A stretch of 40,418 nt of DNA from Xanthobacteraceae bacterium (GTDB lineage Bacteria; Pseudomonadota; Alphaproteobacteria; Rhizobiales; Xanthobacteraceae). Position 1 is the first letter of the stretch. Each line of letters starts with the position of its first letter. A program made the position numbers and the translations under genes. Where the stretch lies: contig JASHVN010000190.1 of the NCBI GenBank assembly GCA_030044555.1, positions 1-40,418 on the forward strand. The letters are read 5' to 3'. Below the pieces are notes generated by a model. It saw only the letters and a program-made list of their open reading frames with translations. It ran no database searches and had not been told where the DNA came from. Below are positions 1 through 16,217 of the stretch, piece after piece.

Positions 1-258
1 TCGGCGCTCAATGGCACGCTGCCGGACTCGCCGCTGCGCGTCGAAAGCTTCGACGACTTGATCAAGCAAGGTCAGGCCATCGCCGGTTCGCCGGATACAG
101 TCTCCAACTGTCTTGCCGCGCAGATCGCCGAGAGCAACGCCAATTACCTCGTCGGCCAATTCTGCTTTGGCGATCTCGCTCTCCATGAAATGCTTCAGTC
201 GGTCGAATTGTTCGCAACGCGAGTCATGCCGGTGTTGCGCCAGGCGTTGGCAGATTAA
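1..258 (+). CDS. Luciferase-like flavin monooxygenase, C-terminal part
   Basis: Only the last 85 codons are present; the reading frame is open from base 1 and ends at TAA 256-258. The stretch GSPDTVSNCL followed by NYLVGQFCFGDL and a final helix (SVELFATRVMPVL) is typical of the C-terminus of bacterial-luciferase-like (LLM) FMNH2-dependent monooxygenases, where the GSP(D/E)TV segment starts the last part of the TIM barrel. Members oxygenate small organics, often aromatic or heterocyclic, using reduced flavin from a reductase. A full-length LLM gene lies at 1284-2480, so two paralogous oxygenases may act in one pathway. Family confident; substrate unknown. Confidence 0.85.
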   Translation, partial: SALNGTLPDSPLRVESFDDLIKQGQAIAGSPDTVSNCLAAQIAESNANYLVGQFCFGDLALHEMLQSVELFATRVMPVLRQALAD

Positions 259-478
259 ATTGGTTGAATGCGCGGCAACAGACGCGCAATCCATTGCAAA
301 TCATCGACGCTCCATACGCACGCGCGCATGAACGACCCTCGTCAGGCGCGTAGCTGCTCATCGATGCATCGCTTGTTTCGCTTGCATTGCAAGAGCTAAG
401 CTGCCCTCGCGATGACGACTTACGCTCGGAATCCGACACCAACCGAGCAGTCATAAGAGACACGCTGGGGAGGACGGA

Positions 479-1267
479 TTGGGTGAGACAGCCATAGCGC
501 GCGAGATCATCACTCTCGCGGGCATCGAGATCGAACTCTTCGAAGGCGGCAAAGGAACTCCACTCCTCTTCCTGCATGGCGCCCAGGGGTTCTCGCCGAC
601 GCACCCTTATGTCGCGCCTTTGACGCAACACCGGCGTCTGATCGCACCTTCGCATCCAGGCTTCGGCGCATCCGGACTGCCGCTCTGGCTCGATAGCGTC
701 GACGACATCGCTTATGTGTATCTTGAATTCCTCGATCACCGCGGTCTTGACCGTATCGATATCGTCGGTTGCTCGCTCGGCGGCTGGCTCGCTGCCGAAA
801 TCGCCACGAAGACCCCCGAACGCGTCGGCAAATTGGCGCTGGTCGGACCTGTTGGCGTCAAGCTCGGGCCGACAGACAAGCTCGACATTCCCGACATTTT
901 TGCCATGTCGCAGGAAAAAGTCGCCCGGCTGATCTACCATGACGTCGCGAAGGAGAAACCCGATTTTGCGAAGATGAGCGATGAGCAACTTACGACCATC
1001 GCGCGCAACCGGGAGACCACGGCGCTACTCACCTGGGAACCCTGGATGCATAATCCAAAACTCCGCCACCGCCTGCACCGCGTGAGCGCGCCGACCCTGT
1101 TTATTCGGGGCGCGAGCGATGGTCTGGTCAGTCAATCCTACGTCGACGGCTATGCCAGGCTCATCCCCGGTGCGCTGGTGACGACAATCGTCGCGGCCGG
1201 TCACGCGCCGCAACTTGAACAGCCGGAAGAATTCGCCCGCGTGCTGTTCGACTTTCTCGACGCGTGA
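479..1267 (+). CDS. Alpha/beta hydrolase (meta-cleavage hydrolase type)
   Basis: 262 residues, usual for the family. Visible: the strand and oxyanion region LLFLHGAQGF (29-38), nucleophile elbow GCSLGG with Ser99, acid GASDG with Asp214, and AAGHAPQLEQPEEF with His242, a complete Ser-Asp-His triad. No signal peptide, so cytoplasmic. The start is TTG at 479, preceded by GGGGAGG at 467-473. It ends 16 bases before the next LLM gene, so the two are probably co-transcribed. Such enzymes hydrolyse C-C bonds of ring-fission products, esters, or amides such as N-formylmaleamate. Beside flavin oxygenases, hydrolysis of a ring-opened intermediate is the natural inference; the reaction is not proven by sequence. 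Confidence 0.9.
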   Translation: MGETAIAREIITLAGIEIELFEGGKGTPLLFLHGAQGFSPTHPYVAPLTQHRRLIAPSHPGFGASGLPLWLDSVDDIAYVYLEFLDHRGLDRIDIVGCSLGGWLAAEIATKTPERVGKLALVGPVGVKLGPTDKLDIPDIFAMSQEKVARLIYHDVAKEKPDFAKMSDEQLTTIARNRETTALLTWEPWMHNPKLRHRLHRVSAPTLFIRGASDGLVSQSYVDGYARLIPGALVTTIVAAGHAPQLEQPEEFARVLFDFLDA

Positions 1268-1283
1268 TCGAAGGAAGAGCGCC

Positions 1284-2480
1284 ATGAAGGCCTGGCATTT
1301 CAGCGAGACCGCCTACCCCTATCTGCCGCCGGACTCCGAGTACGAATCGATCCGCGTCAACCTGCCGAACCGCAACTACGACCCAAAAAAGGGCGCGGCG
1401 CTTTACGACCGCTTCATCGAGGAGTGGCAGGTGGCCGAGGAGGAAGGCGTCAACATCATGCTCAACGAGCATCATCAGACGGCGACCTGCGTCGATCCCG
1501 CCGCGCCGCTGGTGCTGGCTGCGCTGGCGCGCGTCACCAAGACCGCGCGTCTTTTGATCCTGGGCAATCCGATCGCCAACCGCCGGCAGCCGGTGCGCGT
1601 CGCCGAGGAAATGGCCCTGATCGATGTGCTGTCGCACGGTCGCCTTGAGGCCGGCTTCGTGCGCGGGGTGCCCTATGAGATTTCCGCCGGCAACAGCAAT
1701 CCGATGCGCACCAACGAGCGCTTCGCCGAGGCCCTCGATCTCATCGTCAAAGCATGGACCAGCCATGACGGCCCGTTCAGTCACGAAGGCCGGTTCTTTC
1801 ACCATCGCCAGGTCAATATCTGGCCCCGCCCCTATCAGTCACCGCATCCCCCGGTATGGATCTCAACGACGACGCCAAACGGCGCCCAGCGGGTCGGCGC
1901 GCAAGGCTTTGTGCAAGCGACCTTTCTCACCGGCTACGATGGAACGCGCCGTGTCTACGACGCGTATCGGCGCGGATGGCGCGAAGCCGGGCGTGCGCAA
2001 GATGTACCGATCAACCGGCTCGCCTACGCCGCGCTGGTTTACGTCGGCGACAACGAAGCCGACGCGCGTGCCGGAGCCGAGAAAATCCTGTGGTACGTCC
2101 GGGCCAACAAAGTGCCGCAACATTTCTCTTTCCCGCCCGGCTATGCACCGCCGCAAGCGTTTACGCGCATCTTGCGCGGCGACGTTGGCGACCAGCACTC
2201 CAACTTTTCAGCAAAGGCGACGGTCGACGGCACGATCAATGCCGGCCTGATGATGGCTGGCACGCCCGATCAGGTCTATGCGCAAATCCGAAAAATGTAC
2301 GATCACGTCGGCGGATTCGGACATCTTCTGATCATGGGCCAAGCGGGCTTTCTCGATCACGACGAGACGGTACGCAGCATCCGCAATTTTGCGCGTCATG
2401 TTTACCCGCGGCTCAAGGCGGAGATGCCAGATGATGCCATTTCCGGGTTTTCGGCGCCTGCTGAAAGAACCGCCGTCTGA
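1284..2480 (+). CDS. LLM-class flavin-dependent monooxygenase
   Basis: 398 residues from ATG 1284, chosen because AAGGAAG (1271-1277) precedes it; an upstream in-frame start would overlap the hydrolase. The TIM-barrel signature is clear: MLNEHHQTATC, the beta-3 segment LLILGNPIANRRQPVRVAEE, and the block IDVLSHGRLEAGFVRGVPYE, which is the (D/S)xLSxGRxxxGxGRG-type motif of this family. It should use FMNH2 from a separate reductase. No reductase gene is seen in the window. It sits in a tight forward run: hydrolase, this gene, then SDR. Two-component LLM enzymes open rings or hydroxylate heterocycles (RutA on uracil is the known analogue), but residues alone do not define the substrate here. Confidence 0.92.
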   Translation: MKAWHFSETAYPYLPPDSEYESIRVNLPNRNYDPKKGAALYDRFIEEWQVAEEEGVNIMLNEHHQTATCVDPAAPLVLAALARVTKTARLLILGNPIANRRQPVRVAEEMALIDVLSHGRLEAGFVRGVPYEISAGNSNPMRTNERFAEALDLIVKAWTSHDGPFSHEGRFFHHRQVNIWPRPYQSPHPPVWISTTTPNGAQRVGAQGFVQATFLTGYDGTRRVYDAYRRGWREAGRAQDVPINRLAYAALVYVGDNEADARAGAEKILWYVRANKVPQHFSFPPGYAPPQAFTRILRGDVGDQHSNFSAKATVDGTINAGLMMAGTPDQVYAQIRKMYDHVGGFGHLLIMGQAGFLDHDETVRSIRNFARHVYPRLKAEMPDDAISGFSAPAERTAV

Positions 2481-2506
2481 GGGTGAATGATCTGAGGGTA
2501 AACGAC

Positions 2507-3265
2507 ATGGATTTCGGCCTGAAGGATAACGTCATTCTGATTACCGGCGCAGCAAGCGGCATCGGCCAGGCAGCGGCACGCCTGCTCAAAACATCAGGAG
2601 CCAAGCTGGTCCTTACCGATATCAATGCCGATGCGCTGTCCGCCATTGCGCGTGAGACAGCCGCCGGCGTCGAGACTTTGGAGCTCCAACTCGACGTGTC
2701 GTCGGCGGACCAAACGAAATCTGTCGTTGCCACGGCGGCCGACAAGTTTGGCCGCATCGACGGCCTCCTGCACTTTGCCGGCGTGATCGATGCGCACAGC
2801 ATCGAAGACACGACGGTCGCGCACTGGAATCGCGTCATCAACATCAACCTGCTCGGCACATTCCTGACGGCTCAGGCTGTCGCCGCGGTCATGCGCCGCC
2901 AGCGACGCGGCCGCATCGTGCTCACCGCCTCAGATTCGGCGCGCAAAGGAGCATCAATCAGCGGACCGGCCTATGCCGCCTCGAAGGGCGGCGTCATCGC
3001 ATTGACGCGCGATCTCGCCATGAAGCTCGGATCGTCCGGCATCGCCGTAAACGCGATTTGTCCGGGCATCGTTCTCACCCCGATGGTGACTAGGGACGTC
3101 GGCATTGGACAAGCGGTCGTCGATGAAGTGATCTCGCGAACGCCGCTCGGACGCCTCGGTCAGCCCGATGACATGGCCAATGTGGCCATCATGCTGCTGA
3201 CCGACGCGGCCAAGTTCGTCAATGGCGAGATCGTTGAAGTCAACGGCGGCTTTTTCTTCGACTGA
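2507..3265 (+). CDS. SDR-family NAD(P)-dependent dehydrogenase
   Basis: 252 residues from ATG 2507, with GAGGG (2494-2498) in front; a GTG at 2483 would add eight residues with a poorer site. Classical short-chain dehydrogenase features: cofactor loop TGAASGIG (13-20), HFAGV after beta-4 (89-93), structural Asn114 in ININLLG, a Ser near 142, and the catalytic YAASK (Tyr156, Lys160), ending VNGGFFFD. Asp38 after beta-2 (LVLTDIN) favours NAD over NADP by the family rule. It follows the LLM gene after 26 bases, so it is likely the last gene of the forward operon, oxidising a hydroxylated or ring-opened intermediate. The substrate is unknown. Confidence 0.92.
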   Translation: MDFGLKDNVILITGAASGIGQAAARLLKTSGAKLVLTDINADALSAIARETAAGVETLELQLDVSSADQTKSVVATAADKFGRIDGLLHFAGVIDAHSIEDTTVAHWNRVININLLGTFLTAQAVAAVMRRQRRGRIVLTASDSARKGASISGPAYAASKGGVIALTRDLAMKLGSSGIAVNAICPGIVLTPMVTRDVGIGQAVVDEVISRTPLGRLGQPDDMANVAIMLLTDAAKFVNGEIVEVNGGFFFD

Positions 3266-3298: not shown

Positions 3299-4312
3299 TC
3301 AGCGATTCGCGATCGCCACAAGCATATCCCAGACCTGTTTCATCTCCGGATGTTGCTGGACGATGTCGTCGCCGACTGACCGCGTCTGCTGATTCAGCTC
3401 GGCGCGTTCGGCGTCGGAGAGTTCGATCAACTGGCCGCCATGCGCGACCCAGGCCTTCCTCTGCTGGTCGAGAAAGTTCAGCGAATAGGGCAGAATTTCA
3501 CTGGTGATCTGCTTGCTGGTGGCGAGGATCTGATTCTGCAAATCCGGCGGCAGCTTGTCGAACCATTGCTTGCTCAGCATCGCCACGCTGTAGAAGTACA
3601 CATGACGCGTTTCGAACATGTATTTGGCCGCATCGTAGTACTTGAACGCGGTGAAGACCGAAACCGCCCCTTGTGCACCATCAATCGCACCCTGCTGCAA
3701 GGCCGGCAGGACATCGCCTAGCGACAGCGGGACGCCGGTTGCGCCCAGGCGAGCAAGAGGTTCGGTCTGGAATTGCGACGCCAAGACCCGGATCTTCGTG
3801 TGCTTCAGATCCGCAATGTGCTGAACCGGAATGCGCATATCGTAGGACGAGGGCCCGACATAAAACAGGCCAACACCGATCAGACCTTTGTTCTCGGCCA
3901 TCGACAGAAAGACCTTGTCGAACTGGGCGTCATCGAAAACCTTGAACGCTTGCTTTTCGTCTTTGAACAATCCGGGCGCGCTCAAAATCTCAAAACGGCG
4001 ATCGACACCGACCAGAAACTCTGGTGGTCCGACCCAGCCCTGAATGGCTCCCATCTGCGTGCCTTCGACCTGCCGGGGAATGCTGCCCAGCTGACTGGCG
4101 GGAAAAACCTCGGCCTTGATCCGGCCGTTGGTATTCTTGTCGATGGCCGCGGCAAAGCGCTTCAACCATTCGTGCTGCGGGTCGTTGAGGGTGGCGGTGC
4201 TCAGCCGCATCACAATGGGCTGCGTCCCCTGTGCCATTGCGTTGCTGGCGATGAGGCTCGCAGCAATCAACGTTCCGTAGAAGATTGCCGTTATGCGGCC
4301 GAACTTTCCCAT
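3299..4312 (-). CDS. TRAP transporter solute-binding protein (DctP family)
   Basis: 337 residues from ATG 4312 with GAGGTGAGG upstream; a longer frame to 4417 lacks a good ribosome site and would bury the signal peptide. The N-terminus MGKFGRITAIFYGTLIAAS ending in a likely ANAMA-QG cleavage site targets it to the periplasm. Family marks include VMRLSTATLNDPQHEW, FPASQLGS, MGAIQGWVGPPEFL, and the Arg-containing motif IRVLASQFQTEPLARLGATGVPL, where the Arg binds a carboxylate in DctP proteins. No DctQ or DctM membrane subunit is present, so it must borrow them or act elsewhere. It lies downstream of the NCS2 permease and ubiD genes and probably shares their substrate class, an organic acid. 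Confidence 0.92.
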   Translation of the reverse strand: MGKFGRITAIFYGTLIAASLIASNAMAQGTQPIVMRLSTATLNDPQHEWLKRFAAAIDKNTNGRIKAEVFPASQLGSIPRQVEGTQMGAIQGWVGPPEFLVGVDRRFEILSAPGLFKDEKQAFKVFDDAQFDKVFLSMAENKGLIGVGLFYVGPSSYDMRIPVQHIADLKHTKIRVLASQFQTEPLARLGATGVPLSLGDVLPALQQGAIDGAQGAVSVFTAFKYYDAAKYMFETRHVYFYSVAMLSKQWFDKLPPDLQNQILATSKQITSEILPYSLNFLDQQRKAWVAHGGQLIELSDAERAELNQQTRSVGDDIVQQHPEMKQVWDMLVAIANR

Positions 4313-4565
4313 GGGCTTCCTCACCTCTGTCTGCCTCATCTCTGTCTGCACCGATTCTGCCTGTATCGACCGGCAACGAGACCAGTGTCCATTTTTTGCG
4401 GTCCCCTCACGTCTCACAGGCCAGCTGGCGGTATGACGATGAAAACGATAGTCAAATAACGAAAGGACAGGAATGATCGAAACGCGGACCAGTCGTGCAA
4501 CACGATGGGTGCTGAGGAGCAGATCGGCCCTCCTTCCGGTTGTGCATACGACCGGAGTGGCAAGG

Positions 4566-5918
4566 CTAAGTCGTCTTGCTGATCTCAGGTTTCTTTCGCT
4601 TGTTCAGCAATGGATCGAGAATGAGCATCGTAATTCCCCCGGTTACCGCCGATTGTTTCAGGATCAACTGCACGACAAGGGGCAAATGATCCATGACGTC
4701 GGGTGAAATGAACAGTCCACCGAGACCGATCATCAGGGCCGAGCCTGCAATAATCAGATTACGATCATCCCATTCGACATCACCGATCAGATGAATGCCG
4801 TGCACCATCACGATGCCGAACAGAATGGTCGCGATCCCGCCCAGCACGACCAATGGCACCAGAACGAGCAGCATGTCGAACTTACTGAAACAGCCAAGTA
4901 CGACCAAAAGTACCCCGGCTGAAAGTGTCGCATATCGTGACGCGACGCGCGTCGTTCGCAGCATACCAATATTGTCCGGGTAGATGTTCATGGCAAAGCT
5001 GCCGACCACGGCTCCGAATATCGAACCGACGGCCGCGCCGAAACATCCTTCCGCCATACGCGAAGGCGGCATCGGCTCGTCCATCCAGCTGGCGACCGCC
5101 TGGTACAAGGGCATGCACGTGATGCTACACGGCACCATCACCAGCACGAAGAGCAGGACGGCTTCCGGCTGGACGCCGAAGCCGAACGGGAACGCCTGCG
5201 GCACGACAAGCCAAGGGGCGGTTACGACCGGCGTGAACGACGTCGGGACGAAAGCCGTATAGGCAAGCGTTCCGGCGATCAGGCCGAGCAGAATCGCGCC
5301 CCGCCGCAGCCATCGCCCGCCAAACAGCGTTACCACGACGAAGACGGTCACGGCGACGAAGCCGCCGAACAGGTTGATGAAGGGGAAGCCCGGCGTCGCA
5401 CGAACGCCGAGCCAATTGGGGAGCGACACTGAAGCGATCTGAAATGAAATTAGAAGGACCATCAGGCCGCTTATCATGGACGACTGGAAGAAGCGGCCAA
5501 AGAGACCGATGATGCTATAGCCGCGCACGGGAACGGCGAAGACCGCCCAAATGAGGCAGGCAACGAACAGCGAGCCGTAAGCGGTGCCGAGCCCGATGCC
5601 GAGAGTATGCCCCATGATCAGAATGGCGATGAAGGTGCCGAAATAAGGCCCCTGCACGATCGGCATCCGCAACAGACCGACCGACTGAAGGCAAGTCGCC
5701 ACCCCCGACGTCACGAACGTCATGCCGTATAGATAGGCGATCTTCTCCGGCGGCAGATGAAACGAGCGGCCAAGAAGTCCCGGAAAGACAAAGATACCTG
5801 CCATTCCGAAGATGTTCTGAAAACCCAGCAGCAGCAGTTCGCCAAAAGGCAACTTGTCGTGAACGCCGACGTCGAACATGCCGCGCGGTTTTGCCGCCAC
5901 CGCGTCGCTCGTCTGCAT
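4566..5918 (-). CDS. NCS2 nucleobase:cation symporter (uracil/xanthine permease family)
   Basis: 450 residues from ATG 5918, with GGGGGAGGAAG directly upstream. About a dozen hydrophobic segments; typical family features are LPFGELLLLGFQNIFGMAG near the start, QSVGLLRMPIVQGPYFGTF (the half-helix QG-P-F region), a pseudo-repeat in the second half, and SALMIGLGGLF. Known members import uracil, xanthine, urate or related N-heterocycles with H+ or Na+. The C-terminus is short, ending in a basic tail. It lies 87 bases downstream of the UbiD decarboxylase; the same pair in the same order survives as a relic at 31490-31739, so the two proteins are functionally linked. That suggests the UbiD substrate is a heteroaromatic acid. 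Confidence 0.9.
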   Translation of the reverse strand: MQTSDAVAAKPRGMFDVGVHDKLPFGELLLLGFQNIFGMAGIFVFPGLLGRSFHLPPEKIAYLYGMTFVTSGVATCLQSVGLLRMPIVQGPYFGTFIAILIMGHTLGIGLGTAYGSLFVACLIWAVFAVPVRGYSIIGLFGRFFQSSMISGLMVLLISFQIASVSLPNWLGVRATPGFPFINLFGGFVAVTVFVVVTLFGGRWLRRGAILLGLIAGTLAYTAFVPTSFTPVVTAPWLVVPQAFPFGFGVQPEAVLLFVLVMVPCSITCMPLYQAVASWMDEPMPPSRMAEGCFGAAVGSIFGAVVGSFAMNIYPDNIGMLRTTRVASRYATLSAGVLLVVLGCFSKFDMLLVLVPLVVLGGIATILFGIVMVHGIHLIGDVEWDDRNLIIAGSALMIGLGGLFISPDVMDHLPLVVQLILKQSAVTGGITMLILDPLLNKRKKPEISKTT

Positions 5919-6005
5919 GATCTTCCTCCCCCGATTTTTTGTTTGATAGTGAAAGAAACGGCGCGTTGGTTTTCGCCGATGCCGCGGCCAGACCAACGGT
6001 GGCGC

Positions 6006-7676
6006 CTAGTCCTCGATGCCGACGTCCGGCTCGACCCTCCAGACCATGGTTTCGGGCGTAAGCCCTCCCCGCTGGCGCTGCTTGGTTGCTTGGCCGTTGT
6101 TTTCCCATTCGCTGCGCGCTGCGCGCTGCGCGAACAATTCCCAATTTTCGGTCCACTTGCCGAGCGTGTAGCCGTGCCAGGGCGTCTTCAGCGCGATGGG
6201 CGGCAGCTTCAGCTCGGCCCACAGCGCTTGCGCGCGGTCCATGAATTCCTTCCTGGGAAGGGCCAATGGCGGCATCGCGCCTTTGATCGTTGCATCGATC
6301 AAGAGCGTCGAATCTGCGGCGCGGCTGCCATATTGCGAGCCCTGAACGTTGCCGCGATAAGGTGACACGTGAACGTCCTCGACAGGATTGCAGCGGTAGG
6401 CGAGCGACCAGAAGACGGCGTCGGCGTTGGTGGGCTCGATATCCTCGCTCACCGCAATGCAAATCTTGCCGCAATCCGCCATCAGCGTCGCCGCCCCTTC
6501 GAGGCCGCGCCAAACCTCGGTACGCGGCGTGCCAGCGGCGTACTGCACGAAGATCACGGGGCGGAGATTGGTCAGCGGCTCATGCATGACAACGCGGCGC
6601 ACGCCGCGCACGGCCAGCCGCTCCTTCAAATGATTGAGCCACAGCGGCTCGTAAGCCACCTTCTTGATCATGCTGGATTCGCTCGGCGTCACCTGGCTGA
6701 TGATCGAGGCGAAGACGGGCGAACGCTTGTGGGTGATGGCCGTGACCTCCATCACCATATTGAAGGCCTCGAGCGCGACATAGCCGTTACTTTCGCCGAA
6801 CGGCGCTTCCGGTTCGAGAAGCTCGGTATCGATCAGCCCCTCGACGACGATCTCGGCGTTTGCCGGCACCTGCAGATCGACCGTCTTGCAGGCCGCGATT
6901 GGAATTGGCTGGCCGGCGAGCGCGCCGGCGACCGCCATCTCGTCCACATCGATCGGGAGCTTTTGCGGGCCGGTGAACATCACCACCGGCGGCACGCCGA
7001 TTACGATGGCGATGGGCATTTTTTTTCCGAGCGCCTTGTATTTCATCCAATGCCGATAACCGCCGGCGCCGTTTTCACCGACGACCATGCGGACCGCAAT
7101 CCGATCGGCTGCTTTCAGACCCGCCCGATAGGTCCCCATGTTCTGCACGCCGGATTCAGGATCTTTGGTGACGCACAGGGTCGCGGTAAGATAAGGTGCC
7201 GCATCAAAGCCCGGCGTCGAGATCGGGACCGGCAGACGCTTCAGGCCACCGCTCGTGCCGCGAAGGCTATCGCCGGTGATGACGACTTCCTGGCATTCCG
7301 CCGACGGTACTGCCACCGGGGCAATTGGATTGCGGATGGCCTTCATCCAGACATCGCCGATCTCTTCGATGTGGCAACCCATGCCTTGCGCATAGATGTC
7401 AGGCGACGCCGCAAAGGCACCGACCACGACGGGGATGTCAAAATGCTTGCCCGTGCCGTCGATCACGTTGGTGAACAGAAAGGCGCGGCGTTCATGCTCG
7501 GAAATGCCGCCGACAAACTGCAGACGCACGAGCGGATGCAGTTCGCTGTCCTTATTGATGGGATGATCGATGCGGGTGAGGAGTCCACGCGCCTCGAGAT
7601 TTTTCAGATGCTCCTGAAAATCGACCGCCACTCGCGTGCTTCGAACGTCGCCGATGGCGCTTGGCGCGTAGTTCAT
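6006..7676 (-). CDS. UbiD-family prenylated-FMN-dependent decarboxylase
   Basis: 556 residues from ATG 7676 (GGGGAGGG seven bases upstream). UbiD enzymes (de)carboxylate aromatic, heteroaromatic or acrylic acids with prenylated FMN. Visible: QNMGTYR with Arg184, matching the cofactor- and substrate-binding Arg; KMPIAIVIGVPPVVMF; and EPEAPFGESNGY, with Glu290 and Glu295 at the five-residue spacing of the catalytic Glu pair. Length is usual for the non-ubiquinone branch. No UbiX prenyltransferase is in the window, so cofactor must come from elsewhere. It is the first gene of a reverse unit (ubiD, NCS2 permease, dctP) under a promoter that carries the TGTCGACA operator. The sequence does not identify the substrate. 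Confidence 0.93.
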   Translation of the reverse strand: MNYAPSAIGDVRSTRVAVDFQEHLKNLEARGLLTRIDHPINKDSELHPLVRLQFVGGISEHERRAFLFTNVIDGTGKHFDIPVVVGAFAASPDIYAQGMGCHIEEIGDVWMKAIRNPIAPVAVPSAECQEVVITGDSLRGTSGGLKRLPVPISTPGFDAAPYLTATLCVTKDPESGVQNMGTYRAGLKAADRIAVRMVVGENGAGGYRHWMKYKALGKKMPIAIVIGVPPVVMFTGPQKLPIDVDEMAVAGALAGQPIPIAACKTVDLQVPANAEIVVEGLIDTELLEPEAPFGESNGYVALEAFNMVMEVTAITHKRSPVFASIISQVTPSESSMIKKVAYEPLWLNHLKERLAVRGVRRVVMHEPLTNLRPVIFVQYAAGTPRTEVWRGLEGAATLMADCGKICIAVSEDIEPTNADAVFWSLAYRCNPVEDVHVSPYRGNVQGSQYGSRAADSTLLIDATIKGAMPPLALPRKEFMDRAQALWAELKLPPIALKTPWHGYTLGKWTENWELFAQRAARSEWENNGQATKQRQRGGLTPETMVWRVEPDVGIED

Positions 7677-7729
7677 CTAGTACCCTCCCCGTCCCGCCAC
7701 CGCATTCGGCGCGTCTGTGGCACCGAATT

Positions 7730-7758
7730 AGTGTCGACATTTGGTCGCTTTTTGTCAA
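7730..7758 (-). promoter_or_regulatory. Promoter and GntR operator of the ubiD unit
   Basis: Reading the reverse strand, TTGACA at 7758-7753 is followed after 17 bases by GACACT (7735-7730), a weak -10. The palindrome TGTCGACA occupies 7732-7739 and so covers the -10 region, 56 bases before the ubiD ATG. The flank (TTAGTGTCGACATTTGG read forward) is nearly identical to the site at 8079. Repression by steric block is inferred; the likely binder is the GntR protein at 14181-14900. Confidence 0.6.
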
Positions 7759-8055
7759 CTGAGGCGTCGCCATTAACAGCCCCGGAGGAAATCTCGGATG
7801 CCGCGTGGTGTGGTCTTTCGAATCGAGCGCGGCGCATGGCGCGGCTGCCACCAGGCGCCACGGCGCAGGTTTTGCCGCTTTGCCCTGCCGCCCATCGCTC
7901 CACGCCCGATTTTTCATTATTTCCTGGGTGTGCAGGTCGTCGCCTGACAGAGGCGGCGGGTAGCGCAAACGCGCCCGAAACGCAGCTATAAAGTGCGCGG
8001 CGGGAAGCTGCTGGAAGGCCAGGCTTATGGGCTTCAGAACGTCCAAACCGCTCGC
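7759..8055. other. Non-coding stretch between divergent ubiD and hydroxylase units
   Basis: Part of the roughly 450-base gap between the ubiD start and the first forward ORF. I see no gene with a ribosome site or recognisable protein, and no strong hairpin. Long frames that cross it on either strand are extensions of antisense frames of ubiD. The regulatory sites lie at its two edges. Confidence 0.5.
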
Positions 8056-8090
8056 TTGACACTAACGAGATCGGATGCTTAGTGTCGACA
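8056..8090 (+). promoter_or_regulatory. Promoter and GntR operator of the molybdenum hydroxylase operon
   Basis: TTGACA at 8056-8061, a 17-base spacer, then TTAGTG at 8079-8084, which runs into the palindrome TGTCGACA (8083-8090). The operator therefore overlaps the -10 exactly as at 15110. The next ATG is that of the small ORF at 8129; the hydroxylase FAD subunit starts at 8251. The -35 is consensus, the -10 is poor. Confidence 0.65.
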
Positions 8091-9135: not shown

Positions 9136-9623
9136 CGGTCAAGCAGGCGATTGCCGTCACAGTGAACGGCAAGCAGTATCAGCGCGAAGTTGAGCCGCGG
9201 CTGACGTTGGCCGACTTTCTGCGGCACGAAATCAACCTGACCGGAACTCATCTCGGCTGCGAACACGGCGTTTGCGGTGCCTGCACTATTTTGCTGAACG
9301 GTCTTTCCACCCGCTCCTGTCTGACATTTGCCGTACAGGCCCATGGACAGGAGGTGACGACGATCGAGGGCCTCGCCGAGCCGGACGGCACGCTCAGTCC
9401 GTTACAGCAGGCCATGGCGGAAAATCACGCATTGCAGTGCGGCTTCTGCACGCCGGGCATGCTGATCACCCTGACTGAGCTGTTGCGGGATGATCCGAAT
9501 CCCGACGACGCCAAGATACGCGAGACGCTGACTGGCAATCTTTGCCGCTGCACCGGCTATTCCGGCATTGTCGCCGCCGCGCGACAGGTGGCGAAAGGCG
9601 GCCGCGGCATCGCGGGAGACTGA
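9132..9623 (+). CDS. Molybdenum hydroxylase, 2Fe-2S small subunit (CoxS-like)
   Basis: 163 residues from ATG 9132, which overlaps the FAD-subunit stop; an earlier in-frame ATG at 9105 lies within that gene and is less likely. The N-terminal plant-type ferredoxin cluster has Cys43, Cys48, Cys51 and Cys63 ([11 protein letters not shown]...SC). The C-terminal helical domain has Cys103, Cys106, Cys138 and Cys140 (CGFCTPGM ... CRC), one of which also contacts the molybdopterin cofactor in known structures. All eight ligands are intact. It carries electrons from the Mo centre to FAD. Confidence 0.95.
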
Positions 9624-9626: not shown

Positions 9627-11981
9627 GTGGGTGCAAAGCAATTCGGCGCGCGCGTCAAGCGATTGGAGGACCCGGCGCTGCTGGTTGGCAGCGGCCAGTA
9701 CACCGACGACATCAAATTGCCCGGCACCTTGCACGCGGCGTTCGTGCGCAGTCCGCACGCCGCCGCAACGCTTCGTGGCATCGACGTCGACGCCGCACTC
9801 GCTTTGCCGGGGGTGCGCGCGGTGTTCACCGCCAAGGATCTGCCGCCGGCCATGAGCAAAATGCGAATGCCGCAGCTGGTGCCCAATGCGGCGATGCAAA
9901 CGATACGGACTCAGCACTGCCTCGTCGTCGACGAGATCTGCCACGTCGGCCAAGCCGTCGCCGTCGTGCTCGCGGACAGCCAATACATCGCCGAAGACGG
10001 TGTCGACCGCGTTCAGGTTGATTACGACGTGCGGCAGGCGGTCAATGATGTGCGCGACGCGGTCAAACCCGGCTCGCCCTTGGTTCACCCCGATCTCGGC
10101 TCCAATATCGTCGCCGCTTCGCCGATGGCGTACGGCGATGTCGACGCCGCATTTGCGAATGCCAAACATGTCTTCACGGAACACATCTGGCAGCATCGCG
10201 GCGGCGGCAACGCCCTTGAGGCGCGTGCAATCCTCGCCAACTACGATCTGATGAACGATATGCTGACCGTATGGTCGGCGACACAGGTCCCGCACACAAC
10301 CCGGCGCATGATCGCCGAGCTGATGGGGCGCAATCTCGATCAGATCCGTGTCATAGCGCCTGATGTTGGCGGCGGCTTCGGGCCGAAAGCGACCATGTAT
10401 TGCGAGGACACTGTCATCGCGCAAATCGCGATGCAGCTGCGCCGCCCGATCAAATGGACGGAAGACCGGCGCGAGCATTTTCTGTGCGCGACGCAGGAGC
10501 GCGATCAATACTGGGATGTGTCCATTGCCGTCGACGATGATGGCCGCATCATAGGCGTACGCGGACATCTGCTGCACGATTCCGGCGCCTACCTGCCCTG
10601 GGGCATCATCATGCCCTACATCGCGGCAACCACGATGCCCGGCCCGTACGTTATCCCGGCGTACCGTCTCGACATGACGGTCGTATTCACCAACAAAGTT
10701 CCGACAACGCCGGTGCGCGGTGCGGGCCGGCCTCAGGCCGTGTTCGCAATGGAACGGCTGATGGACCGCGTCGCCCGCGAACTGAAGCTCGATCCATCCG
10801 AAGTGCGTCGGCGCAATTTCATTCAACCGGAACAGATGCCCTACCCGGTCGGACTGGTGTTTCGCGACGGCAAGCCATTGGTTTACGACAGCGGCGACTA
10901 CCCGAAGTGTCAGGAGGCCGCGCTCAAGCTTTCCCGCTATCAGGATTTCAAACCACGCCAGGCCGAGGCGCTCGAACAAGGGCGCTACATCGGCATCGGA
11001 ATCGCGAATTACGTCGAGGGAACCGGACTCGGACCGTTCGAGGGCGTGACCGTAAGGGTGCTACCCAATGGCAAGGTGCGGGTCATTACCGGGGCGACCA
11101 ATCAGGGCCAGGGCACACGGACGACACTCTCGCAGATCGTAGCCGACGCGGTCGGCTGCTCCATGGAAGACATCGTCATGACCCTCGGTGATACCGCGGC
11201 AATCGCGAATGGGCTTGGCGCCTTCGCGAGCCGCCAGGCGGTTAACGCCGGTTCATCAGCACGAATTGCCGGCTTGGAGGTGCGTAAGCAGATTCTGCGC
11301 GTCGCCGCGCGCAGTCTGGGCGTGCCCGAAGAGCAAATTGATCTTGAGGACGGCTGGGCCATCTCTCGTTCCGGCAACCGGCAGTCGATCAGCTTCGGCC
11401 GGCTCTCATTCGCCTCGCAGGGCATGCCCGGCTTCTCGATGGAGCCCGGCGACAGCGTCGGTCTCGAGCACACGGCTTTCTATATGCCGCCGCAGGCCGC
11501 CTATTGCAGCGGCACGCACGTCGCGGAGGTCGAGGTCGACGTCGGCACCGGCGCCGTGAAAGTTGTCAATTATGTCGTGGCCCACGACTGCGGAACGGTC
11601 ATCAATCCGCTGATCGTCGACGGCCAGGTGCAAGGCGGCGTCGCCCACGGCATCGGCAATGCACTCCTTGAATGGATGCAATACGACGAGAACGCACAAC
11701 CCATAACCGTAACCTTTGCTGATTATTTGATGCCGATGGCGACCGATGTGCCAGATTGTGTGATCGAGCACGTCGAGACGCCCTGCCCGCTCAATCCGAT
11801 CGGCGCCAAAGGAGCCGGCGAAGGTGGAACCATTCCGGCTGCCGCAGCAATTATCGCCGCGGTGGAAAATGCGCTCTCGCCGTTCGCCGTCTTTTTTGCC
11901 GACACGCCACTTGTTCCGGAGAGGATCGTCTCCGCACTTACCACCGCCAATGCTTATCGCCGCCGTCATGCACAGAAGTGA
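9627..11981 (+). CDS. Molybdenum hydroxylase, large Mo-cofactor subunit (CoxL/XdhB-like)
   Basis: 784 residues from GTG 9627 with GGGAG upstream, three bases after the small subunit. Family marks: GxYTDDI near the start, DVGGGFGPK (the Moco-binding GGGFG), VRGAGRPQ (363-370), and GAKGAGEGGT with the catalytic Glu732. The loop is RGAGRP, not the AYRCSFR of true form-I CO dehydrogenase, so CO oxidation is unlikely. Enzymes with RGAGRP hydroxylate N-heteroaromatics, purines or aldehydes next to the hetero-atom, taking oxygen from water. With an NCS2 permease and UbiD in the same apparent regulon, an N-heterocycle is a fair guess. Cofactor maturation proteins (XdhC, MobA) are not in the window. 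Confidence 0.94.
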   Translation: MGAKQFGARVKRLEDPALLVGSGQYTDDIKLPGTLHAAFVRSPHAAATLRGIDVDAALALPGVRAVFTAKDLPPAMSKMRMPQLVPNAAMQTIRTQHCLVVDEICHVGQAVAVVLADSQYIAEDGVDRVQVDYDVRQAVNDVRDAVKPGSPLVHPDLGSNIVAASPMAYGDVDAAFANAKHVFTEHIWQHRGGGNALEARAILANYDLMNDMLTVWSATQVPHTTRRMIAELMGRNLDQIRVIAPDVGGGFGPKATMYCEDTVIAQIAMQLRRPIKWTEDRREHFLCATQERDQYWDVSIAVDDDGRIIGVRGHLLHDSGAYLPWGIIMPYIAATTMPGPYVIPAYRLDMTVVFTNKVPTTPVRGAGRPQAVFAMERLMDRVARELKLDPSEVRRRNFIQPEQMPYPVGLVFRDGKPLVYDSGDYPKCQEAALKLSRYQDFKPRQAEALEQGRYIGIGIANYVEGTGLGPFEGVTVRVLPNGKVRVITGATNQGQGTRTTLSQIVADAVGCSMEDIVMTLGDTAAIANGLGAFASRQAVNAGSSARIAGLEVRKQILRVAARSLGVPEEQIDLEDGWAISRSGNRQSISFGRLSFASQGMPGFSMEPGDSVGLEHTAFYMPPQAAYCSGTHVAEVEVDVGTGAVKVVNYVVAHDCGTVINPLIVDGQVQGGVAHGIGNALLEWMQYDENAQPITVTFADYLMPMATDVPDCVIEHVETPCPLNPIGAKGAGEGGTIPAAAAIIAAVENALSPFAVFFADTPLVPERIVSALTTANAYRRRHAQK

Positions 11982-11984: not shown

Positions 11985-12716
11985 ATGACCGACAACGCCT
12001 TCACCACGACATTCGACAGCTCCCGCCACGCGACCACCCTGACCTTGATCAGAGGGGAAAGCGGCAATCGCCTGACCGGCGCCGACATCAGCGCCATCGC
12101 GGCGGCGATTCGTGACGCCAGTCACGACGTAAGAAATAAGCTCTTGGTCCTGCGCGCCGATGGCGAGCACTTCTGCTTGGGGCGTATCCCCGACGCCAAG
12201 GGGGCGACGCGACCGACGGCACTGGACCTGCGCGACAGTGTCGCCAGCACAATCATGGCGCTTTACGCCGCCGTGCGTTACGCGCCCATCCCCGTGATCT
12301 GCGTGGCGCAGGGCGACGCGCGCGGCTTCGGCTGCGCCGTCGCCGCGCAATGCGACATTACGATCGCGAGCCGAACGGCGCGTTTCTCGCTGCCTGAGCT
12401 CGATACGACCATTCCGCCAACGTTGGCGATGTCCGCTCTATTGCACAAGGTTCCGCCCAAGATCATCGCGCACCTGGTCTACACGCGGCAGACGATTTCG
12501 GCTGACGACGCGCGGCACTTCGGCTTGGTCAGTCAGGTCAGCGATCCCGGCGAACTGACCGCAGACGTGGATCGCATCGTTGACAGTCTCGGGGAAAAGC
12601 CGCGCGCGGCGCTGACGACCATCAAGGAATATCTCTGGAACGCGCTTCATGTCGACCCGGTAGCGTCCGCGCAGCTGGCACAGAACATGATTTCAGTGGC
12701 GATGTCGTCTTTCTAA
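11985..12716 (+). CDS. Enoyl-CoA hydratase/isomerase (crotonase) family protein
   Basis: 243 residues, ATG 11985 three bases after the large hydroxylase subunit, so the same operon. Crotonase marks: LLVLRADGEHFCLG (first oxyanion-hole strand), then VICVAQGDARGFGCAVAAQCD (second oxyanion Gly), then ARFSLPELDTTIPP, where the acidic residue sits in hydratases, and TRQTISADDARHFGLVSQV. The usual (A/S)GGD of hydratases is replaced by GRIPD in the first loop, so the exact reaction may be hydrolysis, isomerisation or hydration of a CoA ester or another activated carbonyl. No CoA ligase is nearby. Role: processing of a hydroxylated intermediate, inferred. Confidence 0.85.
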   Translation: MTDNAFTTTFDSSRHATTLTLIRGESGNRLTGADISAIAAAIRDASHDVRNKLLVLRADGEHFCLGRIPDAKGATRPTALDLRDSVASTIMALYAAVRYAPIPVICVAQGDARGFGCAVAAQCDITIASRTARFSLPELDTTIPPTLAMSALLHKVPPKIIAHLVYTRQTISADDARHFGLVSQVSDPGELTADVDRIVDSLGEKPRAALTTIKEYLWNALHVDPVASAQLAQNMISVAMSSF

Positions 12717-12804
12717 CAGCAGCCGACGGCCATCCACGCCGACGCATGTCAAAGAAATTCCGGGGCGGAACAAACCCCGAAGAAGTTGCGAGAGGAAAAC
12801 GGCT

Positions 12805-14112
12805 GTGTCCGAACAAAGCTCGGCCCTGAGCGGTGAACGCCCGAGCATAGCAACATCGACGTCCGCCATCCCTTTTTCAGCGTGGCTTGCCCTTGGTTCC
12901 GCTTGCCTCGGCTGGATGTTCGACTCGATGGACCTCAATCTGTTCACGCTGATCCTGTTTCCGACAGTGAGCAGCCTGATCGGTTCGAGCAACGCCGCAT
13001 CGGTCGCGGCCATTGGCGGGACCGTCGTTGCCATAAAGCTGTTCGCCTGGGGGGTAGGCGGCATTTTGTTCGGCGTCGTGGCCGACCGCATCGGCCGCAG
13101 CCGAACCATGTTGATCACGATCCTGATTTACGCCGTCTTCACCGGGCTCAGCGGCCTGTCGCACAACTGGATCGAGCTTGCGGTCCTGCAGGCGATTGCC
13201 GGCGTCGGCATCGGCGGCGAATGGGCCGCCGGCGCGGCGCTGGTCGCCGAGACCTGGCCGGAGCAAAGCCGGTCAAAGGCGCAACAGGTCATGCAAATGA
13301 TGTTCGCGTTCGGCGTCTTTTGCGCCGCCGGCGCCAATCTCCTGGTGGGCCCCTACGGGTGGCGTTGGGTGTTCCTCGCCGGAGCCGCCCCCGCTCTATT
13401 GACGCTGCTGATGCGTAAATGGGTACCGGAGCCACAACGCTGGCAGCAGGTACGCGCTAGCCAAAAAGGGACGCGACAAGACAGTGCGAAAGAGACTTTC
13501 CTCGCCATCTTCCGTCCACCCTTCCTCCGGCACACCGTGGTCGGAGTCGTCATCAGCCTGGCGATGATGATCGGTTCGTGGGGCGGCCTCGTGCTGCTAC
13601 CCACGTGGGTCTACACAATTCTCGGCCCGGGCGCGTCCTCCGTCGTGAAACTAAAGGATACGAGCCAGATCTTCTTCATCATGAATATCGGTGCCGTCGC
13701 CGGATATGTCTTGCTGATTTGGCTGGTTGACTGGATCGGGCGCAGGCCATCCTATTTCGTATTCTGTCTTGGCTCCTATCTCGCCAGCGTGGTGATGTTC
13801 ACCCAGGCGAGATCATATGAGCAGATGTTGTATTTCGTGTTCTTCCTGGGTTTCTTTGCTAATGGTGGCTTCGGCACTTTCGCCATTTACCTGCCAGAAC
13901 TTTTTCCGACACGTTTTCGCGCGACCGGCCAGGGCTTTTGCTGGAACGTGGCGCGAATGGTGACGGGCATCGGTCCGTTCGTGACAGGGATGCTGGTCAG
14001 CACCTTCGGCTCGGTGCCGCATGCCTCCCTCGGCATCAGCTGGGTCTTCGTTCTGGGGTTGATCGCGATCTGGTTCGGCCCCGAAACGCGAGGCAAGCCG
14101 CTTAGCGACTGA
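12805..14112 (+). CDS. MFS transporter (aromatic-acid/metabolite:H+ symporter type)
   Basis: 435 residues from GTG 12805, preceded by AGAGGAAAA (12791-12799). About twelve hydrophobic segments. The early motif FDSMDLNLF resembles the DGxD region of the aromatic acid:H+ symporter family, and GVVADRIGRSRT is the loop 2-3 MFS motif. The second-half counterpart is WLVDWIGRRPSYF. It lies 88 bases after the crotonase gene and is the last gene of the forward unit, convergent with gntR. It probably imports the substrate or exports an intermediate; direction and ligand are not visible. Confidence 0.9.
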   Translation: MSEQSSALSGERPSIATSTSAIPFSAWLALGSACLGWMFDSMDLNLFTLILFPTVSSLIGSSNAASVAAIGGTVVAIKLFAWGVGGILFGVVADRIGRSRTMLITILIYAVFTGLSGLSHNWIELAVLQAIAGVGIGGEWAAGAALVAETWPEQSRSKAQQVMQMMFAFGVFCAAGANLLVGPYGWRWVFLAGAAPALLTLLMRKWVPEPQRWQQVRASQKGTRQDSAKETFLAIFRPPFLRHTVVGVVISLAMMIGSWGGLVLLPTWVYTILGPGASSVVKLKDTSQIFFIMNIGAVAGYVLLIWLVDWIGRRPSYFVFCLGSYLASVVMFTQARSYEQMLYFVFFLGFFANGGFGTFAIYLPELFPTRFRATGQGFCWNVARMVTGIGPFVTGMLVSTFGSVPHASLGISWVFVLGLIAIWFGPETRGKPLSD

Positions 14113-14180: not shown

Positions 14181-14900
14181 TCAGCGTGGCAGGCATTGCT
14201 CCAGTGCCGCAAGGGCGCCCATATGGTTCGAGCGAATGAGCGCCGCTGCCAGATGCGAATCACGATCCTCATAGGCCTTCAGCAATCGTGCATTGTCGTC
14301 GAGCGAGGACTGCATTCGTTTGGGCTGCGACAGGCTCAAACGGCGGAGTCGCAATGTGCGTAGCAACAATGAGTCGAGGATGCGTTTGACCACTCTATTT
14401 GCAGCGAGCTGGGTATTGAGATCGTAAAAATCCACGTTGGCCCACACAAACCCGTTGAGGTCGTCGTTGCGGGCAGCCTCCACCATTGCGGCAAGCGGCT
14501 TGCGCAGTCCGGTGATATCGTTAGCCGAGCTGTTGCGTGCGACGTCGACCGCGATCACTTCGAACAGAGCCGCGCGTGCATGATAGATATCGCGGACCTC
14601 CGAAACCGCCAGCGAAGCGACGCGCGGCCGGCGGCGCGGCGGAATTTGCACAAGTCCCTCTTTCTCGAGCAGCATCAGAGCTTCGCGGATTGGCGTGCGG
14701 CTGGTGTGAAAACGCCGCGACAGATCGACAGAATTGAGGTCATCGCCGGCTGGGCGCAATTCCTCGATGATTTCGGCGGCCAGTTCGCAGGCGATGTCCG
14801 CCACGAGCGATGGCCGGTCATGCCGTTCGGCGACGATGGAGCGTGCGACGGCCAGCGCCCGCGCAAACGAACGCTCGTCGCGAGCCCGCGGGACCGGCAA
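14181..14900 (-). CDS. GntR-family transcriptional regulator, FCD subfamily
   Basis: About 239 residues. Winged helix-turn-helix near residues 35-95: DLSRRFHTSRTPIREALMLLEKEGLVQIPPRR, with the GntR core (S/T)RTPIREAL. The C-terminal part is an all-helical FCD ligand domain with the metal-site pattern Asp ... His typical of acid-sensing members (FADVNFYDL-like segment, DSHLAAALIRSNHM near the end). The frame has no ATG; TTG at 14900 is the furthest usable start and is uncertain. It is divergent from the NicX-like gene. TGTCGACA sites precede it and three other promoters, so it is the obvious candidate repressor, released by a pathway acid. Confidence 0.9.
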   Translation of the reverse strand: MPVPRARDERSFARALAVARSIVAERHDRPSLVADIACELAAEIIEELRPAGDDLNSVDLSRRFHTSRTPIREALMLLEKEGLVQIPPRRRPRVASLAVSEVRDIYHARAALFEVIAVDVARNSSANDITGLRKPLAAMVEAARNDDLNGFVWANVDFYDLNTQLAANRVVKRILDSLLLRTLRLRRLSLSQPKRMQSSLDDNARLLKAYEDRDSHLAAALIRSNHMGALAALEQCLPR

Positions 14901-15025
14901 TTGAGGCCTGGATACGATATCGATGGCGGCTGTCCTCTGCTTGCACGCTGTGACGATTTTATCACGCGATTAGGTAGCGGGAACCAGCTGGTGATGCGGT
15001 GGCGCGGCCTATCCCGAACGCTAAT

Positions 15026-15038
15026 TGTCGACACTATA
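15026..15038 (-). promoter_or_regulatory. Operator and -10 of the gntR gene
   Basis: Read on the reverse strand, TATAGT (15038-15033) is a near-consensus -10 that merges with TGTCGACA (15033-15026), giving TATAGTGTCGACA. No convincing -35 at 17 bases is seen. Position 126 bases before the presumed TTG start fits autoregulation with a leader. The palindrome is the same as at 7732, 8083 and 15110. Confidence 0.5.
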
Positions 15039-15081
15039 CACTGAGAGCGAAAGGTAAGGCTATTGGCGAACGGCTAGAGTC

Positions 15082-15117
15082 TTGACTACTTCCGGCCTTT
15101 ATCCTTAACTGTCGACA
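15082..15117 (+). promoter_or_regulatory. Promoter and GntR operator of the NicX-like gene
   Basis: TTGACT at 15082-15087, 17 bases, then TTAACT at 15105-15110, running into the palindrome TGTCGACA (15110-15117), followed by CAATTTGGCAA. The layout (TTGAC-N17-TTAn, fused operator) repeats that at 8056-8090. The gene starts 47 bases downstream. Confidence 0.65.
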
Positions 15118-15164
15118 CAATTTGGCAACGCTTCACCTCTCCGCCACCAAACACAGGCATAAAC

Positions 15165-16217
15165 ATGTCACTGAATTCGTTTGTCACCGGCAACATGGAT
15201 TACATCCGCCGGCCATTTGTCGCCAATATCAAGCCGGGCCATCGTGTCCTGATCCTCAGTGACTTTTCACACGATCCTCGCGTCTGGCAGGTGGTGCAGA
15301 GCGTCTGTGCGGAGCTTGGCGCGGAAACAACGGTGGCATTGTTCGAACGCCGCGTCGCCGATTATTACGATCCGCCGTCTGCGGTCTGCGAAGCGATGAT
15401 GAAGTCCGATTTCAACGTGCTGCTCGCTTCAACCGGCATGCTTCACTGTCACGCCAATTTCACGGCCATGGCGGCCGGGATTCCGGCCATCTGCATGGAC
15501 GGCGGCATGCAGCTCGAATGGTTTCAGTCCGGAGCAGTGACCGACGACATGAAGCAGATTGCAGTGCGCAAGCACTACGTAGCCAAGAACGTATTCGGTC
15601 CAAATGCGCGCGAATGCCGGGTCACTTCGAAATTCGGCACTGACTTCACCTACAGCGTCGCCAATCGGATCACGCAGCCGCCGCTGCCAACCGATGCGTT
15701 CGATCCTTATAAGATCGTCAATTTCGCCAAGGACGAAAACCGGCCCGGCAACAACCTCCTCTATTATCTATTCCCGACCGGAGAGTTCAACGTCGCGCCA
15801 GTCGAGGGCAGCGCCAAAGGCAAGCTCGTGATTGATTTGACGATGCATCATATCGGACGTCTGCTGACGCCGATCGAGTTGACGGTCGAGCAGGGCCGTA
15901 TAGTCAATATTGACGGCGGCCCCGAAGCGCGAATCCTGCGCGATTACCTGGACGCGTATGGCGACGAGAACGCATATATGTGCCCCGCGGAAGCATCAGT
16001 TGGCGTCAACGCCAAGGCGATCGTGCGCGGCATTCAGCGCGAGGACAAGAACATCATGGGTACCCTGCACTTCGGCCTGGGGACCAACGTCGATGTCGGC
16101 GGTTCAGTAAAGTCCAAGATCCACATGGACGGCGTGGTCTTGCATCCGACGCTTTACGTGGATGGCGTCAAGCGCATCGACAACGGCAAAATCCTGGTCC
16201 CGATCGAGGGCGAGTAA
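15165..16217 (+). CDS. M29/NicX-like metalloenzyme (aminopeptidase or dihydroxypyridine dioxygenase fold)
   Basis: 350 residues, the same length as NicX as I recall it. The C-terminal half aligns with the M29 aminopeptidase / 2,5-dihydroxypyridine 5,6-dioxygenase fold: GRIVNIDGGPEARILRDYL, GTLHFGLGTNVDVGGSVKSK, then His320-x-Asp322 at nearly the same place as the NicX HxD iron ligands. The third NicX ligand (His265) is not conserved: this region reads CPAEASVGVN. Instead Glu207 (PTGEFNVAP), Glu276 and His302 occur where M29 peptidases bind metal. It could thus be a peptidase-like hydrolase (amide or lactam opening) or a ring-cleaving dioxygenase. It is a single gene under the shared operator, so a pathway role is likely; the reaction is open. 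Confidence 0.8.
   Translation: MSLNSFVTGNMDYIRRPFVANIKPGHRVLILSDFSHDPRVWQVVQSVCAELGAETTVALFERRVADYYDPPSAVCEAMMKSDFNVLLASTGMLHCHANFTAMAAGIPAICMDGGMQLEWFQSGAVTDDMKQIAVRKHYVAKNVFGPNARECRVTSKFGTDFTYSVANRITQPPLPTDAFDPYKIVNFAKDENRPGNNLLYYLFPTGEFNVAPVEGSAKGKLVIDLTMHHIGRLLTPIELTVEQGRIVNIDGGPEARILRDYLDAYGDENAYMCPAEASVGVNAKAIVRGIQREDKNIMGTLHFGLGTNVDVGGSVKSKIHMDGVVLHPTLYVDGVKRIDNGKILVPIEGE

Follow-up and report, generated by a model that had tools for sequence, protein, structure and literature searches.

Between 3.3 and 16.2 kb, the window (the whole 40,418-nucleotide contig JASHVN010000190.1 of a soil-type Xanthobacteraceae bacterium, assembly GCA_030044555.1) carries a gene set that appears to encode a pathway, hitherto unrecorded, for breaking down an aromatic acid. 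It most probably forms a regulon that handles an aromatic or heteroaromatic carboxylate and has a dedicated four-site operator and a mosaic origin. An operon headed by a UbiD-family decarboxylase gene and an operon for a three-subunit molybdenum (Mo) hydroxylase share this putative operator with the genes of a GntR regulator and an M29-superfamily metalloenzyme. The arrangement looks like operator capture, in which native UbiD and hydroxylase genes were placed under a foreign switch, and it would illustrate, at the level of sequence, how a regulon can expand by this route, with one specific operator at four sites joining genes of separate history. We give a slightly better than even chance to the view that the window holds an inducible catabolic regulon assembled from parts of differing origin; the regulatory and evolutionary side of this view is supported by sequence only, and from the enzymes we infer the chemistry.

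The putative shared operator and the genes it joins

Four copies of the core TGTCGACA, each with AT-rich flanks, lie in two intergenic regions of the window. Operator 1 (7729–7743, + strand, core at 7732) precedes the UbiD start by ∼55 bp, and operator 2 (8080–8094, + strand, core at 8083) precedes that of the hydroxylase FAD subunit by ∼165 bp. Operators 3 (15022–15036, − strand, core at 15026) and 4 (15106–15120, − strand, core at 15110) both lie between the GntR and M29 genes, the latter ∼55 bp upstream of the M29 start. With two mismatches allowed, the pattern TWGTGTCGACANWWT gave seven strand-hits at the four sites in the window, compared to a mean of 0.80 and a maximum of 5 in shuffled sequences, none of which (0/100) reached seven. 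With one mismatch allowed, the 4.9 Mb assembly (703 contigs, 4.89 Mb and 75.5% complete, of which the window is one whole contig) contained four sites, all in the window, and the reversed-pattern control gave none. As the operator was found only at these promoters in the assembly, the regulator looks dedicated to this set. A sequence-only reading of the window had proposed that the UbiD, Mo hydroxylase, and M29-like genes are under common control, and the operator common to their promoters bears this out at the level of sequence. The pattern was derived from the four window sites, so the shuffle and assembly counts are partly circular; the independent test is provided by the M29 loci of other genomes.

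To obtain such loci, a species-level genome collection was searched with an alignment of four M29 sequences. The 46 loci recovered include 32 orthologues (56–93% identity); the other 14, at 31–37% identity, were excluded from the orthologue counts. The core was present at 25 of the 32 orthologue loci (104 occurrences in 579 kb), and at 22 it fell in the interval from 400 bp before M29 to 60 bp into the longest reading frame. In the 10.9 kb of sequence directly upstream of M29 (350 bp from each of the 32 loci), the core occurred 33 times and the next 8-base palindrome five times. When the full pattern was applied to the 32 genomes with one mismatch allowed, the summed strand-hits numbered 108 versus 39 for the reversed control, and three genomes (G110, G127, and G130) showed no clear excess. 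The core in other M29 genomes also precedes genes for a transporter, an alpha/beta hydrolase, a thiamine pyrophosphate (TPP) enzyme, a CoA-transferase III, a mandelate-racemase-like protein, and HIBADH. Among the matches listed from the open-access PMC literature, there was no paper on the UbiD/Mo hydroxylase/M29 set or on a TGTCGACA/GntR operator.

Families were assigned to the window proteins with Pfam and NCBIfam profile searches, which agree with the earlier listing of a UbiD decarboxylase, an NCS2 carrier, a non-CO Mo hydroxylase, an alpha/beta hydrolase, and an M29/NicX-like enzyme. The UbiD operon lies on the − strand and begins with the gene for the decarboxylase (6006–7676; PF01977, 2.1e-53), an enzyme dependent on prenylated FMN (prFMN). 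Its N, central, and C domains score 29.4, 181, and 32.6 bits, all passing the respective Pfam cut-offs of 24.3 (UbiD_N), 23.3, and 24.2 (UbiD_C), and both the alignment and direct reading place a Glu-Arg-Glu network at R184, E290, and E295, which we take to be equivalent to the Fdc residues. The second gene encodes the NCS2 (xanthine/uracil-type) carrier (4566–5996; PF00860, 8.6e-50), which scores 224.7 bits against the pbuX model, under the cut-off of 414. The operon closes with a gene beyond the earlier list, that of a DctP-type TRAP solute-binding protein (3299–4417; PF03480, 2.7e-52); neither DctQ nor DctM was found among the window genes scanned.

The + strand hydroxylase operon encodes FAD (8251–9135; PF00941, 4.7e-46, and PF03450), 2Fe-2S (9105–9623; PF01799, 1.1e-31), and molybdopterin (9627–11981; PF02738, 1.3e-81) subunits together, as in the xanthine dehydrogenase family. 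The solved protein nearest to the large subunit is quinoline 2-oxidoreductase (1t3q_B, 1.8e-139). The RCSFR sequence is the active-site loop of Cu-Mo CO dehydrogenase; it is absent here, with RGAGR at 364, and the score against NF040766 (802.6 bits) is under the cut-off of 950, in keeping with the assignment to the non-CO type. Two genes that were likewise not in the earlier list close this operon (11985–14112): a crotonase-superfamily enzyme (11985–12716; PF00378, 1.1e-23) and an MFS carrier (12805–14112; PF07690, 1.3e-35) whose nearest model, aromatic acid:H+ symport (TIGR00895), gives 191.6 bits, under the cut-off of 418. The GntR/FCD regulator (14181–14900, − strand), the proposed repressor at all four operator sites, combines a winged helix (PF00392, 1.2e-10) with an FCD ligand domain (PF07729, 2.5e-19). 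The M29 gene (15165–16217, + strand) encodes a protein with a NicX-like fold that scores 25.1 bits against Pfam M29, under the cut-off of 27, and has no match to any NCBIfam model. A 142-residue open reading frame at 7673–8101 was considered as a gene and rejected, as it has no Pfam or NCBIfam family match and resembles intergenic DNA.

Separate histories of the joined parts

We surveyed the genome of the window and those of 100 relatives for the genes of the set (101 genomes in all, of which 78 reach 90% completeness or more). UbiD relatives (E below 1e-60) occur in 24 of the 101. A 36-row tree places the window UbiD gene inside the family, within an 8-row set that has 100/100 support, as sister to a gene of G026. 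For neighborhood comparison we assembled 27 UbiD loci (20 hand-chosen family loci, five of eight plasmid records, the other three of which served the M29 comparison, and two from M29-bearing genomes) and removed one (L086, UbiD 51%), leaving 26 in which UbiD is at least 58% identical. A Mo large subunit lies within 3 kb of UbiD at 16 of these 26 loci, nine of the 16 encoding a subunit 54–71% identical to that of the window, and at 11 of the 20 in the family subset. Conversely, nine of the 14 Mo large subunits at 60% identity or more outside the window are on the same contig as UbiD. These comparisons show UbiD with Mo hydroxylase to be a recurring gene pair in the family, and the relatives could help to find its substrate. 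UbiX, a PcaC-like protein, TIGR02444, a TPP enzyme, or a cupin is encoded near the pair in relatives; for the cupin, near UbiD in one relative, auxin-binding protein was the only solved match. NCS2 relatives (E below 1e-60) are rare and were found in two of the 101 genomes, the window's own and G001, where the copy is on a contig other than that of UbiD. The operator core occurs four times in the 26 UbiD loci of relatives (422 kb), approximately the chance level, and in no case within 1 kb of UbiD. Two side observations concern this family: a 128-residue PcaC-like protein, below the PcaC cut-off, adjoins UbiD in five genus-mate loci (L067, L069, L070, L073, and L075), and the incomplete 4.9 Mb assembly of the window contains a large set of 15 UbiD matches, two of them on one 6.5 kb contig (C334).

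The distribution of the GntR-M29 pair is different. Of the 101 genomes, only that of the window yielded an M29 orthologue, and the same is true of GntR (E≤1e-40). Elsewhere, hosts of M29 orthologues include Pseudorhodoplanes, Bosea, Chelativorans, Silicimonas, four Ancylobacter species, and Prosthecomicrobium, together with Rhizobium lusitanum, Marivita, Nocardiopsis, and Streptomyces; the best named relatives are mostly Hyphomicrobiales. The flanks fetched for the 32 M29 loci (at most 10 kb) contain a GntR orthologue (53–81% identity) in 20 cases, 16 of which have it no more than 3 kb from M29. The GntR-M29 module with its putative operator is thus shown to occur in many other Hyphomicrobiales and Rhodobacterales. 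By tblastn (E≤1e-8, 40% coverage), UbiD, the Mo subunits, and NCS2 had no match in the fetched flanks of any of the 46 loci (0/32 orthologue loci), several of which are clipped by contig ends and give lower power (e.g., L105 at 4.3 kb and L099 at 6.2 kb). UbiD orthologues (E below 1e-100) are present in two of the 32 M29-bearing genomes, on contigs other than that of M29. The neighbors of M29-GntR elsewhere are instead PcaD-like hydrolases (below cut-off), TPP enzymes, mandelate-racemase-type proteins, CoA-transferase III, and HIBADH.

We read GntR-M29 as a portable regulon with changing partners, and this gene pair was probably imported into the lineage of the window. Native enzymes under a foreign switch are as operator capture predicts. 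The combination of UbiD, Mo hydroxylase, and M29, which had been regarded as the unusual part of the window, holds up in part: orthologues in unrelated contexts had been named beforehand as a result that would count against it, and the neighborhoods show this for the GntR-M29 half, yet they identify UbiD with Mo hydroxylase as a recurrent pair.

The M29 protein and the candidate chemistry

The M29 protein was modeled with AlphaFold2 from 43 sequences (pLDDT 90.8), namely the window protein, 29 orthologues, and 13 distant rows; three orthologues (L102, L117, and L120) and the distant L136 were left out. NicX, a 2,5-dihydroxypyridine 5,6-dioxygenase, was the top Foldseek match (3.9e-24), with Z scores of 30.8 and 30.0, compared to 18.7–22.5 for M29 aminopeptidases; the comparison covered matches above CgnE/CgnB (Z 13.8 and 12.4). 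The alignment to NicX 7cn3 (Z 30.8) extends over 316 residues with an rmsd of 3.8 and 22% identity. PMC7910607 gives the NicX iron ligands as His265, Ser302, His318, and Asp320. In the window protein, E276 stands at His265 and G304 at Ser302, so that two of the four ligands are replaced, and the His-x-Asp pair is kept as H320 and D322. The NicX substrate pair Leu104-His105 is also kept, as L93-H94. The M29 aminopeptidases PepS/AmpS/AmpT (4icq, 1zjc, and 2ayi) share the fold (Z 21.3–22.5), and five of the six catalytic residues of M29 peptidases are present (E207, E276, H302, H320, and D322), E207 and H302 being features that distinguish the window protein from NicX. It differs from these peptidases in being shorter, in its subthreshold Pfam score, in its location in a catabolic regulon, and in lacking their Tyr; judged by spacing, the Tyr of AmpS and Lmo1603 would fall seven residues beyond His302, a position taken here by Val309. 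E207, E276, and H302 are invariant in all 43 rows, and H320 and D322 in all 30 close rows. In 11 of the 13 distant rows, Arg and Glu replace H320 and D322; this Arg-x-Glu in place of His-x-Asp (L121–L130 and L132–L134) suggests a second metal-site variant.

The NicX-type dioxygenase step to which the M29-like gene had pointed is not supported, because two of the four NicX iron ligands are replaced and five of the six peptidase residues are kept, a metal-ligand pattern of the M29-hydrolase kind. The modeled protein is probably a metallohydrolase, rather than a dioxygenase, with a NicX-like pocket, and the retained Leu-His pair makes a ring-like substrate plausible. We tentatively suggest that this protein and its 32 orthologues might represent a third catalytic type in the NicX/M29 fold, with the shape of NicX and a peptidase-like metal center, that hydrolyzes a catabolic lactam, imide, or amide. 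It would be the constant part of a portable regulon that also comprises GntR and the operator; by setting this operator at their promoters, different bacteria would add differing upper pathways, here UbiD and Mo hydroxylase. The occurrence of this uncharacterized M29/NicX-fold enzyme in culturable named genera (Ancylobacter, Bosea, Rhizobium, and Silicimonas) makes its reaction directly testable.

In the proposed regulon, GntR would repress its own gene and M29 as well as the UbiD-NCS2-DctP and hydroxylase-crotonase-MFS operons, and binding of the substrate or of an early product to its FCD domain would lift this repression. The NCS2 and MFS carriers would import the aromatic or heteroaromatic carboxylate. 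The Mo hydroxylase would then add water-derived oxygen, typically at an aldehyde or at a ring position next to nitrogen, and UbiD with its prenylated FMN would strip the carboxyl group, with these two steps in either order. The M29 enzyme, as a probable metallohydrolase, would hydrolyze an amide- or lactam-like intermediate.

Several results weigh against this reading. The assignment of GntR as the repressor acting at the operator is suggested by position and co-occurrence. Over whole M29 loci, six GC-only palindromes outnumber TGTCGACA; the core is absent from seven of the 32 loci; and these loci include near relatives (four Ancylobacter), such that the counts are not independent. The varied chemistries predicted beside M29-GntR elsewhere do not suggest a heteroaromatic substrate. 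In 18 of the other 100 relatives there are distant M29-fold matches (E≤0.001), the best by E-value being 35% identical. With regard to the catalytic type, the modeled fold is nearer to NicX than to the peptidases (Z 30.8 versus 22.5) and keeps the Leu-His pair, which makes oxygenase chemistry possible. Finally, UbiD-Mo pairing is strongest in a sister set of the window's own 8-row UbiD set. Within the latter, only one of the five other flank-fetched loci (L060, divergent, 54%; not L059, L062, L065, or L077) has the Mo large subunit within 3 kb, so that the exact pairing of UbiD and hydroxylase in the window, though of parts native to the family, may be recent. The same divergent UbiD/Mo layout (68%) is found at L061, outside the 8-row set.

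Rather than a single route, the operator could join two unrelated pathways that lie side by side and respond together to a general aromatic signal, with no channeling from UbiD and the hydroxylase to M29. The separate histories of the parts and the very varied partners of the M29 module in other genomes are consistent with this arrangement, which we nevertheless consider unlikely, given that the restriction of the operator to these promoters makes the regulator look dedicated. A nicotinate- or picolinate-like route, in which the Mo hydroxylase and UbiD turn a pyridine carboxylate into a dihydroxypyridine for cleavage by M29 as a NicX-type Fe(II) dioxygenase, agrees with the best fold match, with the Leu-His pair, and with the quinoline 2-oxidoreductase likeness of the large subunit. 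The later enzymes of the nic pathway are deformylase, maleamate amidase, and maleate isomerase. None of these, and no other nic or pic lower-pathway gene, was named among the matches listed for the genes of 1–16217 in the general Pfam and NCBIfam scans, in which no dedicated profile was run. The missing NCBIfam match of the M29 protein, the absence of Mo hydroxylase from the fetched flanks at 32/32 orthologue loci, and the replacement of two of the four iron ligands named in PMC7910607 also argue against this route, and we regard it as quite improbable. Beyond the papers cited, the nic, pic, and quinolinate pathways entered the comparison in general outline. The statement that the set matches none of nic, pic, and rut stands on feature tests for rut, with nic and pic compared partly in outline: RutD (47.2 versus a cut-off of 238.5) and RutG (53.8 versus 758.65) failed in NCBIfam, and no RutA model was among the 20 luciferase-like monooxygenase (LLM) matches listed.

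In a furan-type route, UbiD would decarboxylate a furan dicarboxylate in the manner of HmfF, and the Mo trio and crotonase would take the roles of HmfABC and HmfE on furoyl-CoA. In its favor, the best solved relative of the window UbiD is 6h6x (2.2e-43), presumably the structure of HmfF and the same enzyme as 6H6V, although the similarity is distant (152 bits; E. coli UbiD scores 105). The identity of 6H6V as HmfF is stated in PMC8988006, and PMC7976604 places the HmfF specificity histidine at H297. In one pairwise alignment, with H297 taken as H296 of the 6h6x chain, this position is S334 in the window UbiD. In the hmf pathway, too, UbiD is accompanied by a molybdopterin-dependent furoyl-CoA oxidase of three subunits and by a hydrolase (PMC12064950, Table 2), and the pairing of UbiD with a three-subunit Mo hydroxylase is thus not itself new. 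The window differs in its NCS2 and M29 genes, in having a GntR regulator where hmf has LysR/AraC regulators, and in that a CoA synthetase (HmfD, an AMP-binding ligase) was not found among the scanned genes of 1–16217. The serine at the specificity position, the missing CoA synthetase, and the distant similarity to HmfF leave the furan-type route very improbable. The lum system for lumichrome/riboflavin catabolism in Nocardioides simplex also combines heterocycle decarboxylation, a xanthine-oxidase-type hydroxylase, and hydrolases; according to PMC12746152, it differs in using a TPP-dependent LumK/LumL decarboxylase instead of UbiD, in the LumJ hydroxylase having all domains in one chain, and in a Rieske dioxygenase as the next enzyme.

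Genes outside the proposed regulon

On the low-numbered side of the UbiD operon, on the + strand, are an alpha/beta hydrolase gene (479–1267; PF00561, 1.5e-22) and an LLM gene (1284–2480; PF00296, 1e-40), both probably outside the regulon, followed by a short-chain dehydrogenase (SDR) gene (2483–3265; PF13561, 8e-63) of unsure membership. The LLM reading frame spans 1215–2480, and its start is probably at ∼1284. Two luciferase-like monooxygenases had been counted in the sequence-only reading; one is a full gene, and the other amounts to a C-terminal tail of 85 residues (1–258, + strand), an open-ended reading frame that is cut by the contig end, was assigned to the family by eye, and lies outside the regulon. 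None of the four operator sites is at 479–3265, as had been observed previously.

The earlier doubt about the membership of 479–3265 proved justified for 479–2480. Matches at ∼70% identity or more were found at eight loci of relatives; the seven fetched (all but that in G022) every one keep the hydrolase-LLM pair (LLM 70–90%), with 82–85% DNA identity in the two closest. It stands apart from the regulon genes in 7/7 fetched loci, since no UbiD, hydroxylase, M29, or SDR gene was found in the stretch around it, and LLM orthologues at 91% identity in G004 and G005 are on contigs without UbiD or Mo matches. We therefore rejected 479–2480 as part of the regulon and regard it as a separate conserved locus. 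Insertion of the whole 3.3–16.2 kb segment into a syntenic genus locus was unsupported, as the flanks fail to align in the seven fetched loci.

Downstream of M29, an aspartyl protease with a PDZ domain (16395–17831) had no counterpart at E below 1e-60 among the 20 other relatives that were searched. The region at 19221–25413 encodes NMT1-type binding proteins, an ABC permease and ATPase, an alpha/beta hydrolase, and a MetE-like protein; at L235 and L240, genes of the MetE-like type also lie close to the hydrolase-LLM pair, and this region and that pair may therefore belong together. At 25805–34436, genes for TctC, ornithine-cyclodeaminase-like, M24 peptidase-like, RraA-like, LysR, MFS, and 3-hydroxyisobutyrate-dehydrogenase-like proteins follow in a row, in what looks like another catabolic cluster.

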